DNA of 54,652 nt from an uncultured Endomicrobiia bacterium (GTDB taxonomy: Bacteria; Elusimicrobiota; Endomicrobiia; DTEH01). The stretch covers positions 1-54,652 of the forward strand of contig CALDDQ010000018.1 of NCBI GenBank assembly GCA_937936785.1, in the 5' to 3' direction. The notes beneath the pieces are model-generated. The model saw nothing but the letters and a program-made list of their open reading frames with translations, did no database searches and had not been told where the DNA came from. Of the stretch, positions 49,631 through 54,652 are shown piece by piece (positions within the stretch are counted from its first letter, which is position 1; every line of letters starts with the position of its first letter). The translations under genes were made by a program, and so were the position numbers.

Positions 49631-52600
49631 ATGAATTATGAAACTGAACAATTTTATAAAAATATAAAAGATAAGTTACAGAATTATGAATATAGAATAG
49701 GTTTAGATATTGGAGTAGGTTCAATAGGGTGGTGCATAGTATCGTTAGATTTTAATAAACAAACAAATGATATAAATTTAAAAGATATAATTTTTTCTGG
49801 AGTAAGAGTTTTTACTCCATCCGATGGTGCAAGTGATAGAAGACAAAAAAGAGCACAAAGAAATCTACACAGACATAAACGTGAAAGATTATATTTTTTA
49901 TGGAAATTATTGGCTGAAAAAAAACTTGCCTTACCTGCACCACAAAAATTGTTTAAAGAAGATCCTTTAACAGATAATTCAATTAAAAGATTTCCAAAAG
50001 AAGTTTTATCTAATATTCCTTATACTTTAAGATACAAAGCTTTATATGAAAAAATCTCTTTAATGGAAATAGGATATGTAATATATCATTTAGCGAACCA
50101 TCGCGGAAGCACTTCTTTACGCAGTTTTGAAGAAACAGATGAAAAAACAAAAAAAGAATATTCTGATCTTAGAAAAAAAGTTACTAATACCAAATTAAAA
50201 ATAAATGATAAAAAATATCAAACTTATGGCGAGTTAATTTATAAAGAAAAAATTGATATAAAACATACTAACCAACTACCTTCTATAAGAAATAAATCAG
50301 AAAAAGTTGAGTTTATTCCAACTAGAGACTTGATTTTAGATGAGTTAAAAAAAATATTAAATAAACAAAAAGAGTTTTATCCTGAAATATTTGCTGATGA
50401 TTTTATTGAAAAAATTATAAATATTGTAAACTTTGAATATGAGCAGGTTGTCCCAGAAGTTGGAAAATGTCCATATTTTAGAAATGAAAATAAATTGCCA
50501 AAAGCTCATCCTCTGTCAGAAGAAAGACGAATCTGGGAGTTGTTAAACAACATCCGTATATCTTATCCAGTAAAAAAAGATTCTATAATAATAAGTTATC
50601 ATGAACGTGAATTGAAAATTGAAGAAAAAAAATTGTTACATAAAAAACTTTATCAACAAAAAGAACTTACTAAAAGTAAAGTTAAAGAAATCCTGGACTT
50701 ACCACCAGATACTGAATTAAAATTTTCCGAAAGAGATAAAAAGGATGAAAAATTGAAAGGTTACCGAAATATTGTGTTGGAACAACAACCTTTCTGGAAA
50801 AGGTTATCTGAAGAACAAAAAGATTCTTTTTTCTATGATTGGATAAATATTTCAAATGATCAAAAACTAAAAAATGTATTAAAAGAAAAATATAATCTAT
50901 CTCAAGATGAAATAGATTTTGCAATAAACAATATCGAAATTTCTAAAACTTATTCACCAATAGGGAAAACTGCAACAAAAATTTTACTTGAATATATAAA
51001 ACAAGGTATTTCTTTTACTGAAGCAATTGATAAAGCTATTGAAGATAAAAAAATAAATATTAAAGAAACTAAAATTTATGACACTCTACCTTATTATGGT
51101 GAAATATTAAGTGATTTTACCCAACCTGTGATATGTAAAGGTCTTATGCAAAAATTTAAAAATAAAAATTATAAAATACCTAATACTGACAAAAATGAAT
51201 TAAAATATGGCAGAATTGCTAACCCTGTAGTTCATCAAACTTTAAATGAACTTAGAAAATTAGTCAATGAAATAATTTTTGCTACAGGAAAAAAACCTTA
51301 TGAAATATCATTAGAAATTTCACGCGATTTAAGAAAAAGTGACGAAGAACGAAGTTATATTATAAATCTTCAAAATAAAAATGAAAAAGAAAATCAACGA
51401 ATTTATGAACAATATTGTAAACCACATAATTTATCATTAAATTGGATATTAAAATTTAAACTTTTTGAACAACAAGATAAAAAATGTCCTTATTGTTTAA
51501 ACCAAATTTCTGTTGATGATATCGTAAATTCACGAGTAGATATTGACCATATATTCCCATTATCAAAAAGTTTAGATAATTCAAGAAATAACCTCGTATT
51601 AGCACATAATTATTGTAATGAAACCAAAGCAGATAATCCTCCTTATAATATATTTTCCAAAGATATTGAAAAATGGAATGATATATTAAGTTATTTAGAA
51701 AAAACTGACGGTATGAAATCTAAAAAATGGAGATTTATGAAAGATAGTTTTGAAAATTTTTTAGAAAATTTAACTATTAAAAAACGGTTTGAAACTGATA
51801 CCACATACATAGGAAAAATTGCTTTAAGATACTTATCTTGTTTGTTTGATAAAAAAACTAAAGTTATACCTTATAAATCTGGTCTTACAGCTCAACTTAG
51901 ATTAGCATGGGATTTGAACAAAATATTGATACCTTATGTAAAAGAATTGTTAGAAGAAGAACAAATAGAAGATTTTGAAAAAACTGCATCATTAAATATT
52001 AAACTAAAAAATGATTACAGAAATCATACTGTAGATGCAATAGTTTTAGCATATGCTACAAGAAATTATTCTAATGTTTTAAACAGAATATCTGCCCACG
52101 GATTTAAAATTGATTATAAAAACAAAAACTGGATGTCAAAAATTTTTGTCCCACCAAATAATATGTCTGTGGAAGATTTTTCTAATTATATAAAAGAAAA
52201 AATTAAAGATTCTTTTATAAGTATAAAACATAATCACGACACAAACGGTCCTTTATTAGGAGAAACTTTTTATAAAGTATTCTTGTTAAATAACAAATAT
52301 TTCCTTGTAACACAAAAAGATGTTGCTAAAATTGATGCTAAAAATGAAGAAAAATTAAATGAAAAATTGTCCTTTGCTAAAGATGCTATTGAACAATCAA
52401 ATAACCAAGAACTTAAAAAAATGTTACAAAAAAATTTAAAAATATTTGAACAAATTAAATCCTACCTACCACAAGCTGAAAAAATCTTAAAAGAAAAAAA
52501 TATAGATGAACAACAAGAAGGTAAAAAAGTTAAAACCATAACAAAAGAAAATATTATTAAAAAAGCGTTAGAAGATATCCGCGGTAAATATTATGATTTC

Positions 52601-53125
52601 TCAAACAAAGAACCAGGAAAATTTTTTATAGTAAAACAACCTAATAAAGATAAAACTGGCTGCGGATATGATACCGGAAAAAGTTTGTGTATCGATTTGT
52701 TTTATAATAAAGAAGGTAAACTTTGTGGTGAAATTGTTCGTAAAATTGATGCAATGAAAAATAAAACTCCTAAGTATATAGAAAATGGGTTTAAACTTTT
52801 TGAACGAATATATCAAGGTGATGTTTTAGAATGTGATGTTTCAAAAGAAATTAAATCTTTAAGTGTAAAAACTGCAAATGCTATTGGAAATAGAGTGTTA
52901 GTAAGAGTGGCAACTTTTACTGAAGTGGGAAATTATTATAGTAATAAATTAAATAAAATACAAATATTTTTCACAAATTTATATAAATCAGATAACAAAA
53001 CTAAAGATAGTTTCTGTATCTCATCAATGCAAAAATATAATGTTAGAAAAGTAATTTTAAGTAGTTTAGGAGCTATCAAATATAGATCTCCTATTTTAAA
53101 AGACAAAAATGTGGCGAATAATTGA
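49631..53125 (+). CDS. cas9: Type II-C CRISPR RNA-guided endonuclease Cas9
   Basis: 1164 aa. RuvC-I YRIGLDIGVGSIGW with catalytic Asp26; arginine-rich bridge helix ~residues 68-95 (DRRQKRAQRNLHRHKRERLY); alpha-helical REC lobe to ~530; RuvC-II SLEISRDLRKS with Glu562; HNH domain with CPYC (C619/C622), VDIDHIFPLS (D639, H640) and NYCNETKAD (C662, N663), a zinc-binding HNH form; RuvC-III NHTVDAIVLAYATRN (H799, D802); C-terminal PAM-interacting region. All nuclease residues are present. Length is at the upper end for type II-C. No csn2 or cas4, hence subtype II-C. The first ~20 residues precede RuvC-I as a charged lead. Its end overlaps cas1 by 17 nt. Confidence 0.97.
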   Translation: MNYETEQFYKNIKDKLQNYEYRIGLDIGVGSIGWCIVSLDFNKQTNDINLKDIIFSGVRVFTPSDGASDRRQKRAQRNLHRHKRERLYFLWKLLAEKKLALPAPQKLFKEDPLTDNSIKRFPKEVLSNIPYTLRYKALYEKISLMEIGYVIYHLANHRGSTSLRSFEETDEKTKKEYSDLRKKVTNTKLKINDKKYQTYGELIYKEKIDIKHTNQLPSIRNKSEKVEFIPTRDLILDELKKILNKQKEFYPEIFADDFIEKIINIVNFEYEQVVPEVGKCPYFRNENKLPKAHPLSEERRIWELLNNIRISYPVKKDSIIISYHERELKIEEKKLLHKKLYQQKELTKSKVKEILDLPPDTELKFSERDKKDEKLKGYRNIVLEQQPFWKRLSEEQKDSFFYDWINISNDQKLKNVLKEKYNLSQDEIDFAINNIEISKTYSPIGKTATKILLEYIKQGISFTEAIDKAIEDKKINIKETKIYDTLPYYGEILSDFTQPVICKGLMQKFKNKNYKIPNTDKNELKYGRIANPVVHQTLNELRKLVNEIIFATGKKPYEISLEISRDLRKSDEERSYIINLQNKNEKENQRIYEQYCKPHNLSLNWILKFKLFEQQDKKCPYCLNQISVDDIVNSRVDIDHIFPLSKSLDNSRNNLVLAHNYCNETKADNPPYNIFSKDIEKWNDILSYLEKTDGMKSKKWRFMKDSFENFLENLTIKKRFETDTTYIGKIALRYLSCLFDKKTKVIPYKSGLTAQLRLAWDLNKILIPYVKELLEEEQIEDFEKTASLNIKLKNDYRNHTVDAIVLAYATRNYSNVLNRISAHGFKIDYKNKNWMSKIFVPPNNMSVEDFSNYIKEKIKDSFISIKHNHDTNGPLLGETFYKVFLLNNKYFLVTQKDVAKIDAKNEEKLNEKLSFAKDAIEQSNNQELKKMLQKNLKIFEQIKSYLPQAEKILKEKNIDEQQEGKKVKTITKENIIKKALEDIRGKYYDFSNKEPGKFFIVKQPNKDKTGCGYDTGKSLCIDLFYNKEGKLCGEIVRKIDAMKNKTPKYIENGFKLFERIYQGDVLECDVSKEIKSLSVKTANAIGNRVLVRVATFTEVGNYYSNKLNKIQIFFTNLYKSDNKTKDSFCISSMQKYNVRKVILSSLGAIKYRSPILKDKNVANN

Positions 53126-53999
53126 TATTACAGGAGATAATTATAACTTAATTTGTAACCAAGAAAATTTGGTTATTGTAAAAAATAATGAAGAAAAGTT
53201 GCGTGCTCATTTCTCTGATATTAACTCTATAATTACACACTCTTATTCCATACTAATAACTGGTGTGTTAATGCAAAAACTAATTGATTATAACATACCA
53301 CTAATAATCTGTGATAGAACACATAACCCAGTAGGGATTTTGTTACAAACTTTTAAACATTCTGAATATGGGAATAGATTACAACTACAAATTTCTGCCA
53401 GTAAACCTTTAATTAAAAAAGCCTGGAAACAAATTATTCAAACTAAAATTTTTAATCAAGCAAAAGTTTTATCTAAAATCGGAAAAAAAGAAGAATCTGA
53501 TCTTTTAATAAAATATTCTAAAGAAGTAAAATCGTTTGATAAAACAAACCGTGAATCTGTTGCATCAAGAGTATATTTTAGCACTTTGTTTGAAAATTTT
53601 AGACGAAATAGCAATGGAAATGATATAATAAACGCTTCTTTAAATTATACCTATACAATTATTAGAAGTTGTGTCGCAAGAAGTGTTGTTGGTAGTGGAC
53701 TTAATCCTTCATTAGGAATTTTTCATAGTTATAAACATAACTATTTTTGCTTAATAGATGATCTCATAGAACCATTACGACCTTTTGTTGATCTTTATGT
53801 TAAAAATAATATTGCAGAAATAACAAAAAATAATATTCTTACAAGTGAAGTTAAACATCTTCTTGTAAAGATTTTAGAAAAAGATTTTGACTATAACTCT
53901 GAACAACTAAATCTTACAAATATAATTCAAAAATATGTTTATTCATATATTGAATATCTATCAAAACAAACAAAAAAAATTAGTATTCCTATGCTATGA
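53109..53999 (+). CDS. cas1: CRISPR integrase Cas1 (type II)
   Basis: 296 aa; integrates new spacers with Cas2. N-terminal beta domain, then the helical catalytic domain with Glu149 (NRESVASRVYFSTLF), His206 (GIFHSYKHNYFCL) and Glu221 (DDLIEPLRPFVD), the metal-binding triad at the spacing usual for type II Cas1. Start at 53109 lies inside cas9 (17-nt overlap) and its stop overlaps cas2 by ATGA, so the three genes form one translational unit. Confidence 0.96.
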   Translation: MWRIIDITGDNYNLICNQENLVIVKNNEEKLRAHFSDINSIITHSYSILITGVLMQKLIDYNIPLIICDRTHNPVGILLQTFKHSEYGNRLQLQISASKPLIKKAWKQIIQTKIFNQAKVLSKIGKKEESDLLIKYSKEVKSFDKTNRESVASRVYFSTLFENFRRNSNGNDIINASLNYTYTIIRSCVARSVVGSGLNPSLGIFHSYKHNYFCLIDDLIEPLRPFVDLYVKNNIAEITKNNILTSEVKHLLVKILEKDFDYNSEQLNLTNIIQKYVYSYIEYLSKQTKKISIPML

Positions 54000-54322
54000 A
54001 GTCACCATATAAAACTATGTGGGTAATGGTAGCATTTGATTTGCCAACTTTGACTAAAAAACAACGTAAAATTGCTAATAATTTTAGAAATAATCTTATA
54101 AAATCAGGATTTAGTAAATTACAACTTTCAGTTTATACATATTTTTGTGAAAGCAAAGAAAAAGCAATACAAATATCAAAAAATTTAGAGTTTAATGTTC
54201 CTGAAAATGGACATGTTACAGTGTTTTTTATCACTGATAAACAATTTGGTATGATAAAAAATTATTATGGAAAATTAACTACTGAAATCAAACAACCAGA
54301 ATTGTTTGATTGTTTGGAATAA
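53996..54322 (+). CDS. cas2: CRISPR integrase subunit Cas2
   Basis: 108 aa ferredoxin-like fold. N-terminal MWVMVAFDLPTLTKKQRKIA with the conserved Asp after the first strand, SKLQLSVYTYFCESKEKA, and GHVTVFFITDKQFGMI. Type II size. Converges with the predicted tracrRNA on the opposite strand: its stop is within a few bases of the tracrRNA 3' end. Last protein gene in the window. Confidence 0.95.
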   Translation: MKSPYKTMWVMVAFDLPTLTKKQRKIANNFRNNLIKSGFSKLQLSVYTYFCESKEKAIQISKNLEFNVPENGHVTVFFITDKQFGMIKNYYGKLTTEIKQPELFDCLE

Positions 54323-54410
54323 AATTTAATTGTACGGGATAAACCCGCATTTTGCGAATTACTCTTATTAGGATGTACCCCTGTGAAATTTTTTTTCTTA
54401 AAAATTTACA
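54323..54410 (-). ncRNA. Predicted tracrRNA
   Basis: On the - strand, AATTTCACAGGG (54390-54379) is complementary to 12 nt of the repeat, CCTAAT (54372-54367) pairs with its first six bases GTTAGG (one G-T), and ATTTTT (54405-54400) with its last six. The intervening GTACAT faces repeat GTTG as an internal bulge. After the anti-repeat come AAGAG, a hairpin CGCA-AAA-TGCG (54356-54346), an overlapping hairpin CGGG-TTTAT-CCCG (54347-54335) and ACAATTAAATTTT as a weak terminator. This anti-repeat, bulge and nexus order is that of type II tracrRNAs, and the location between cas2 and the array is common in II-C loci. The 5' end is not fixed by sequence; no convincing promoter was found. Confidence 0.83.
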
Positions 54411-54490
54411 TTTTTTATAAAATATTTGTCTAAAAAATATGTTTTTTTTCTTAATTTTATATTTCAACTACGACGGAAAATAATTTGAGT
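54411..54490. other. AT-rich spacer between tracrRNA and array
   Basis: 80 nt, almost all A/T with several T tracts on the + strand. On the - strand it would hold the tracrRNA promoter: TATAAA at about 54420-54415 is a possible -10 but lacks a -35. Its last bases TTGAGTA (54485-54491) form an inverted repeat with the first CRISPR repeat. Confidence 0.4.
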
Positions 54491-54652
54491 ATTTTTCTAT
54501 ACTCAATTTCACAGGGCAACCCTAACCAAAAGTTATAGCACAACTAATGCATAATTATTTTTCTATACTCAATTTCACAGGGCAACCCTAACGGCAGAAA
54601 CGATAAATTCTCAAATACAAACATTTTTCTATACTCAATTTCACAGGGCAAC
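54491..54652 (-). CRISPR. Type II-C CRISPR array, start only (cut by window end)
   Basis: Repeats at 54491-54526, 54557-54592 and 54623-54652 (the last truncated after 30 of 36 nt), identical where comparable. Each begins ATTTTTCTATACTCAATTTC and ends ACAGGGCAACCCTAAC on the + strand. Spacers are 54527-54556 and 54593-54622, both exactly 30 nt and unrelated to each other. On the - strand the repeat starts GTTAGGG and ends AAAAAT, the usual type II repeat polarity, and it matches the predicted tracrRNA, so crRNAs are assigned to the - strand, towards cas2. Array length beyond the window is unknown. Confidence 0.96.

Follow-up and report, generated by a model that had tools for sequence, protein, structure and literature searches.

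In the type II-C system of Campylobacter jejuni (PMC3656092, PMC4607530, PMC3936727), three cas genes are accompanied by a CRISPR array read against them, a tracrRNA lying downstream of this array and on the same strand as the crRNAs (PMC4607530), and 36-nt repeats that start with GTT and finish in an AT-rich, -10-like end. The reading of the array against the cas genes is described for type II-C (PMC3936727), as is the position of the oldest, often mutated repeat far from the leader (PMC12080349). The repeat and tracrRNA of C. jejuni share 24 nt of uninterrupted complementarity (PMC4607530), and much of the tracrRNA derives from the array's upstream promoters (PMC3656092). A catalogue that pairs Cas9 orthologs with covariance models of their tracrRNAs contains both looped and fully complementary duplexes, mostly constant per Cas9 clade (PMC7606464); the phylum investigated here is not named in its text. 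For Endomicrobia, a count of 11 type II-C systems has been published, with cas9 not named in the main text (PMC11257099), and some of the relatives described below may belong to this family.

The window analysed here, a DNA stretch of 54,652 nucleotides, contains a locus that shares these layout features with C. jejuni: three cas genes, the direction of the array, the place and strand of the tracrRNA, and the repeat length, start and AT-rich end, the -10-like character of that end being less clear here. In contrast to C. jejuni, the guide duplex of this locus is formed from 8 bp, a loop and 12 bp, the tracrRNA tail carries one conserved 5-bp hairpin, and the Cas9 is longer and only remotely similar. 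The likeness to a Campylobacter-type tracrRNA seen in an earlier, sequence-only reading of this DNA is therefore one of layout; it extends neither to the duplex nor to the two overlapping GC hairpins, of which one is conserved.

The cas genes and the Cas9 clade

The cas genes are located next to each other on the + strand with slight overlaps, and all three are open: (i) cas9 (49631-53125), encoding 1164 aa with intact RuvC and HNH motifs, identified through TIGR01865 (482 bits), Pfam and its motifs; (ii) a type II cas1 (53109-53999; TIGR03639); (iii) cas2 (53996-54322; TIGR01573 and Cas2_II). Between an upstream butyrate/acetate-kinase-like gene and the array only these three genes are present, csn2 and cas4 being absent: a minimal type II-C locus (cas9-cas1-cas2). 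The genome also carries a gene for RNase III. The best sequence and fold matches of the window Cas9, and its nearest solved structures, are the type II-C enzymes Nme1Cas9, ThermoCas9 and GeoCas9, with about 19% identity in structural alignments; the AlphaFold model behind them is modest (pLDDT 71, pTM 0.43) and served only for naming the nearest structures.

A phylum-wide protein search (341 genomes) revealed a Cas9 clade 47-62% identical to the window protein. Its support in the Cas9 tree is 100/100, and the window and genome G107 are sisters at 92/81. A contig scan and a plasmid search returned only remote Cas9s, below about 30% identity, and relatives of the system were not found in viral contigs. 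The Cas9 tree is at odds with genome kinship, family f1 grouping with f16 and f15 nesting among f6, which suggests transfer within the phylum. Some loci of the clade are decaying: in G289 (L052) cas9 is in pieces, cas2 is cut and the array is absent, and in G268 (L053) cas9 is truncated with two different repeats alongside. In G250 (L087, 2346-2388, - strand), a genome with no Cas9 match, a tracrRNA tail is fused directly to a repeat-like stretch, and this element is the relic of a lost locus.

The RNA between cas2 and the array

In all likelihood, the tracrRNA of this type II-C CRISPR-Cas9 system is encoded on the - strand from 54390 to 54334. A tracrRNA on this strand between cas2 and the array had been proposed by the sequence-only reading, and the proposal finds strong support in out-of-sample homology, position, strand, and the co-occurring repeats and Cas9 clade. 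A covariance model of nine tracrRNA copies from eight related loci, with the window left out, matches the window at 54390-54327 (- strand) with 49.4 bits and an E value of 1.2e-10; the next best place for this model in the 54 kb reaches 15.8 bits (E value 0.023), 33 bits lower. This match is the strongest evidence, because it is independent of repeat complementarity. A model including the window gives matches with E values of at most 1e-13 in nine of the 341 genomes (one each, two in G304), all of them adjoining a Cas9 of the window's clade, and a tenth, weak match lies in G250. GTTAGGG-type repeats are carried by eight of the nine matched genomes, the ninth (G261) being cut off before the array. 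The repeats of the relatives start with GTTAGGGTTGCCC, or with GTTAGGGTTCCCC in G304.

Eight relatives have sequence beyond cas2, and in each of them an RNA of the same kind occupies the interval from cas2 to the array, on the same strand as the crRNA. The alignment of these RNAs shows in common GGGCAACTCTAA[C/T]AAGA...TTCG[C/T]AA[A/G]ATGC and a terminal hairpin. Judged from these comparisons, the predicted RNA is a member of a Cas9/tracrRNA family present in nine of the genomes compared, all from one phylum. It is very probably a real tracrRNA of an already known kind, unusual only in the internal loop of its guide duplex, which most relatives do not share. The Rfam covariance models gave no family match at the tracrRNA, and neither repeat nor anti-repeat was found in a CRISPR context in the main texts searched. 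The "distinct guide scaffold" put forward earlier thus applies to the clade as a whole, given the absence of an Rfam match, and not to the loop then stressed, which is a lineage-specific deviation.

The anti-repeat can be read directly on the + strand, in the layout noticed before: TTAGG (54368-54372), ATGTAC (54373-54378), CCCTGTGAAATT (54379-54390), nine bases and AAAAAT (54400-54405). Sequence comparison shows every array repeat exactly mirrored, inverted, by CCCTGTGAAATT. On the - strand, the upper anti-repeat AATTTCACAGGG (54379-54390), an exact complement, forms 12 bp with repeat nt 11-22, and the stretch at 54367-54378, consisting of the internal-loop side (GTAC) and the lower anti-repeat (ATCCTAAT), forms 8 bp with repeat nt 1-8 according to duplex and energy evaluation. 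Exact copies of AATTTCACAGGG in the 1.56-Mb genome are those of the array (contig C18 and, as its probable extension, C3) and a single one in opposite orientation, at 54379-54390. A better anti-repeat near the locus, raised earlier as an objection, was not found, and neither was a second one anywhere else in the 1.56 Mb.

Co-folding, suggested as a check by the sequence-only reading, gives -27.0 kcal/mol for the duplex of repeat and intergenic region, beyond all 200 dinucleotide shuffles (mean -13.5, best -23.4). A simpler complementarity alignment score was equalled by 1 of 200 shuffles, and for this reason complementarity alone is weaker evidence than homology. The best duplex is composed of 8 bp, a 2/4-nt internal loop and 12 bp, the lower stem being lengthened by G7.U and U8-A. 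Compared to the duplex first proposed, the 12-bp upper stem is retained, and the 6-bp lower stem with its 4/6-nt bulge is replaced by the 8-bp version (-26.4 versus -23.7). The outer AAAAAT match exists as letters and is absent from all predicted duplexes; such a match is unremarkable in DNA this AT-rich.

The 5' part of this tracrRNA is complementary to the first 22 nt of each crRNA repeat, over 8 bp and 12 bp separated by the 2/4-nt loop. On the model of known type II systems, from which its transcription, processing and Cas9 binding are proposed, RNase III would cleave within the upper stem. The crRNA would then be kept in Cas9, ready to target DNA, by the lower stem together with a short tail made up of the linker and a single 5-bp hairpin. 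In the window member, the anti-repeat core has been rewritten into the looped duplex, and the upper stem has grown to 12 perfect pairs. The general picture of type II systems is unchanged by this tracrRNA; it supplies the RNA half for a clade of Cas9s (about 1,150-1,200 aa) without a guide scaffold in the literature searched, and these Cas9s become testable.

The loop in the guide duplex

Repeat nt 1-13 pair uninterrupted in six of eight relatives (G107, G105, G304 in reading b, G313, G294 and G079), with a conserved G.U at repeat nt 6. The duplex of G249 has a small loop, the other copy in G304 has one mismatch, and G261, cut off before its array, contributes no repeat to this comparison. A joint change from G-C to C-G is seen in G304 at repeat nt 10 and the base opposite it. 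Between its cas2 and array, this genome carries the tracrRNA twice in tandem (L046, 8119-8180 and 8237-8298), and each copy has the altered base that fits the altered repeat. The duplex as such is conserved in the homologous loci, where its loss had been named beforehand as grounds for rejection; the loop is not. Looped and loop-free duplexes stand within one clade here, in contrast to the pattern of the ortholog catalogue, and together with a tail of one conserved hairpin they represent a small natural experiment on the guide needs of Cas9.

Because six of the eight relatives pair repeat nt 1-13 without a loop, the loop is a derived trait in the window lineage, seen in one genome alongside a longer upper stem. 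The anti-repeat core of the window differs from that of every relative by 4-5 edits, so that a single sequencing error is no explanation. Above the core the window has nine extra perfect pairs, expected by chance in register at about 2e-5 (assuming AT-rich composition), and no relative has an upper stem of this length; that of the sister G107 is extended by 6 pairs, and the remaining ones gain no more than one or two (in this count, the register of G304b is off by one base). The longer upper stem may make up for the loop. A more tentative and rather doubtful proposal is that the lineage evolved its looped 8+12-bp duplex within a mostly loop-free clade with a 13-bp core and that Cas9 changed with it, rewiring guide recognition; guides of sister systems would in that case no longer cross-work.

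The edited core, and a loop where most relatives pair uninterrupted, could also be marks of decay, the RNA then being a tracrRNA descendant made weak or inactive by its core changes in a locus that declines as some others of the clade have done (G289, G268 and the relic in G250). This explanation is improbable in view of the open cas9, cas1 and cas2 with intact motifs, the conserved tracrRNA tail and hairpin, and the five full repeats next to spacers, which are identical. It is also opposed by the upper stem, which exceeds that of any relative through the nine extra pairs at the low chance given above.

Tail, array and strand

The tail of the tracrRNA (54334-54366, - strand) consists of a conserved linker, AAGAG..TTCGCAAAATGC, and a terminal hairpin, both from the alignment and pair counts over 10 sequences. 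The hairpin GCGGG/CCCGU (54334-54348, - strand) keeps 5/5 pairs in 10/10 sequences, with two pairs changed on both sides, and slid controls are 28-60% paired; the covariation is drawn from nine independent copies. A second hairpin, CGCA/TGCG, competes for the same bases, so that the two cannot both form in full, and in the window-alone ensemble they split about 0.52/0.48. CGCA/TGCG was rejected, being full in 2/10 sequences, with its outer pair missing in 8/10 and no covariation. The pair of base-sharing hairpins described by the sequence-only reading, and the covariation it looked for in related loci, are accordingly confined to GCGGG/CCCGU, CGCA/TGCG being an alternative fold. An AU-rich mini-hairpin around CG[C/T]A was likewise set aside, with 77.5% of cells paired and no covariation. 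No intrinsic terminator was found at the tracrRNA. A possible weak promoter, TAGACA-18-TAAATT (54403-54432, - strand), has 9/12 consensus matches, such sites in the region being not above shuffles; by analogy with C. jejuni, the tracrRNA could be supplied from the array's upstream promoters.

The array (54491-54652, - strand) has three repeats with a 66-nt period and the crRNA-sense sequence GTTAGGGTTGCCCTGTGAAATTGAGTATAGAAAAAT. It runs off the contig end and probably continues on contig C3:1-218, across an inferred C18-C3 join. The 36-nt repeats start with GTT and finish in an AT-rich end; the repeat ends of the relatives (GATAAAAT, GGTAAAAT and TATAGAAT) resemble -10 boxes, that of the window (TATAGAAAAAT) less clearly so. 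The oldest repeat (L006 183-218, contig C3) has GTTAAAG where the others have GTTAGGG, so that it differs at two bases of the part that pairs with the tracrRNA, and its duplex with the tracrRNA reaches -20.6 versus -27.0 for the standard repeat. These changes are as expected for the avoidance of extraneous crRNA. Two spacers, compared with viral contigs in a PAM search, gave no match.

The window thus has crRNA and tracrRNA both on the - strand, an array opposed to the cas genes and, given the C18-C3 join, a degenerate repeat at the distal end. The anti-repeat is symmetric, and a + strand duplex also reaches -22.4 kcal/mol, so crRNA and tracrRNA might instead be read from the + strand, in which case the tail would follow the anti-repeat on its right. 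Such an orientation is very unlikely: in all relatives the conserved tail and hairpin are found to the left, on the - strand side, and the - strand duplex is the stronger. A 5' GTT is usual for repeats of type II crRNAs, and the repeat read from the - strand has it. The oldest, mutated repeat has the distal position described for II-C arrays that are read in the direction of the leader (PMC12080349). A chance inverted match in AT-rich DNA, as the one shuffle reaching the simple complementarity score might suggest, has a negligible probability beside an out-of-sample model match whose score leads the runner-up in the 54 kb by 33 bits and the same RNA at that place in eight relatives.

Leader-repeat hairpins are known for type II-A, and none is reported at this end of II-C arrays in PMC12080349. 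In the window (54485-54506, - strand), a hairpin, TTGAGTAT-AGAAAA-ATACTCAA, can form between the leader and the 3' end of the last repeat, and the same junction hairpin is possible in L044, L047, L049 and L051. In a post hoc comparison, five of eight loci have a junction pairing energy among the most favourable 5% of leader shuffles.
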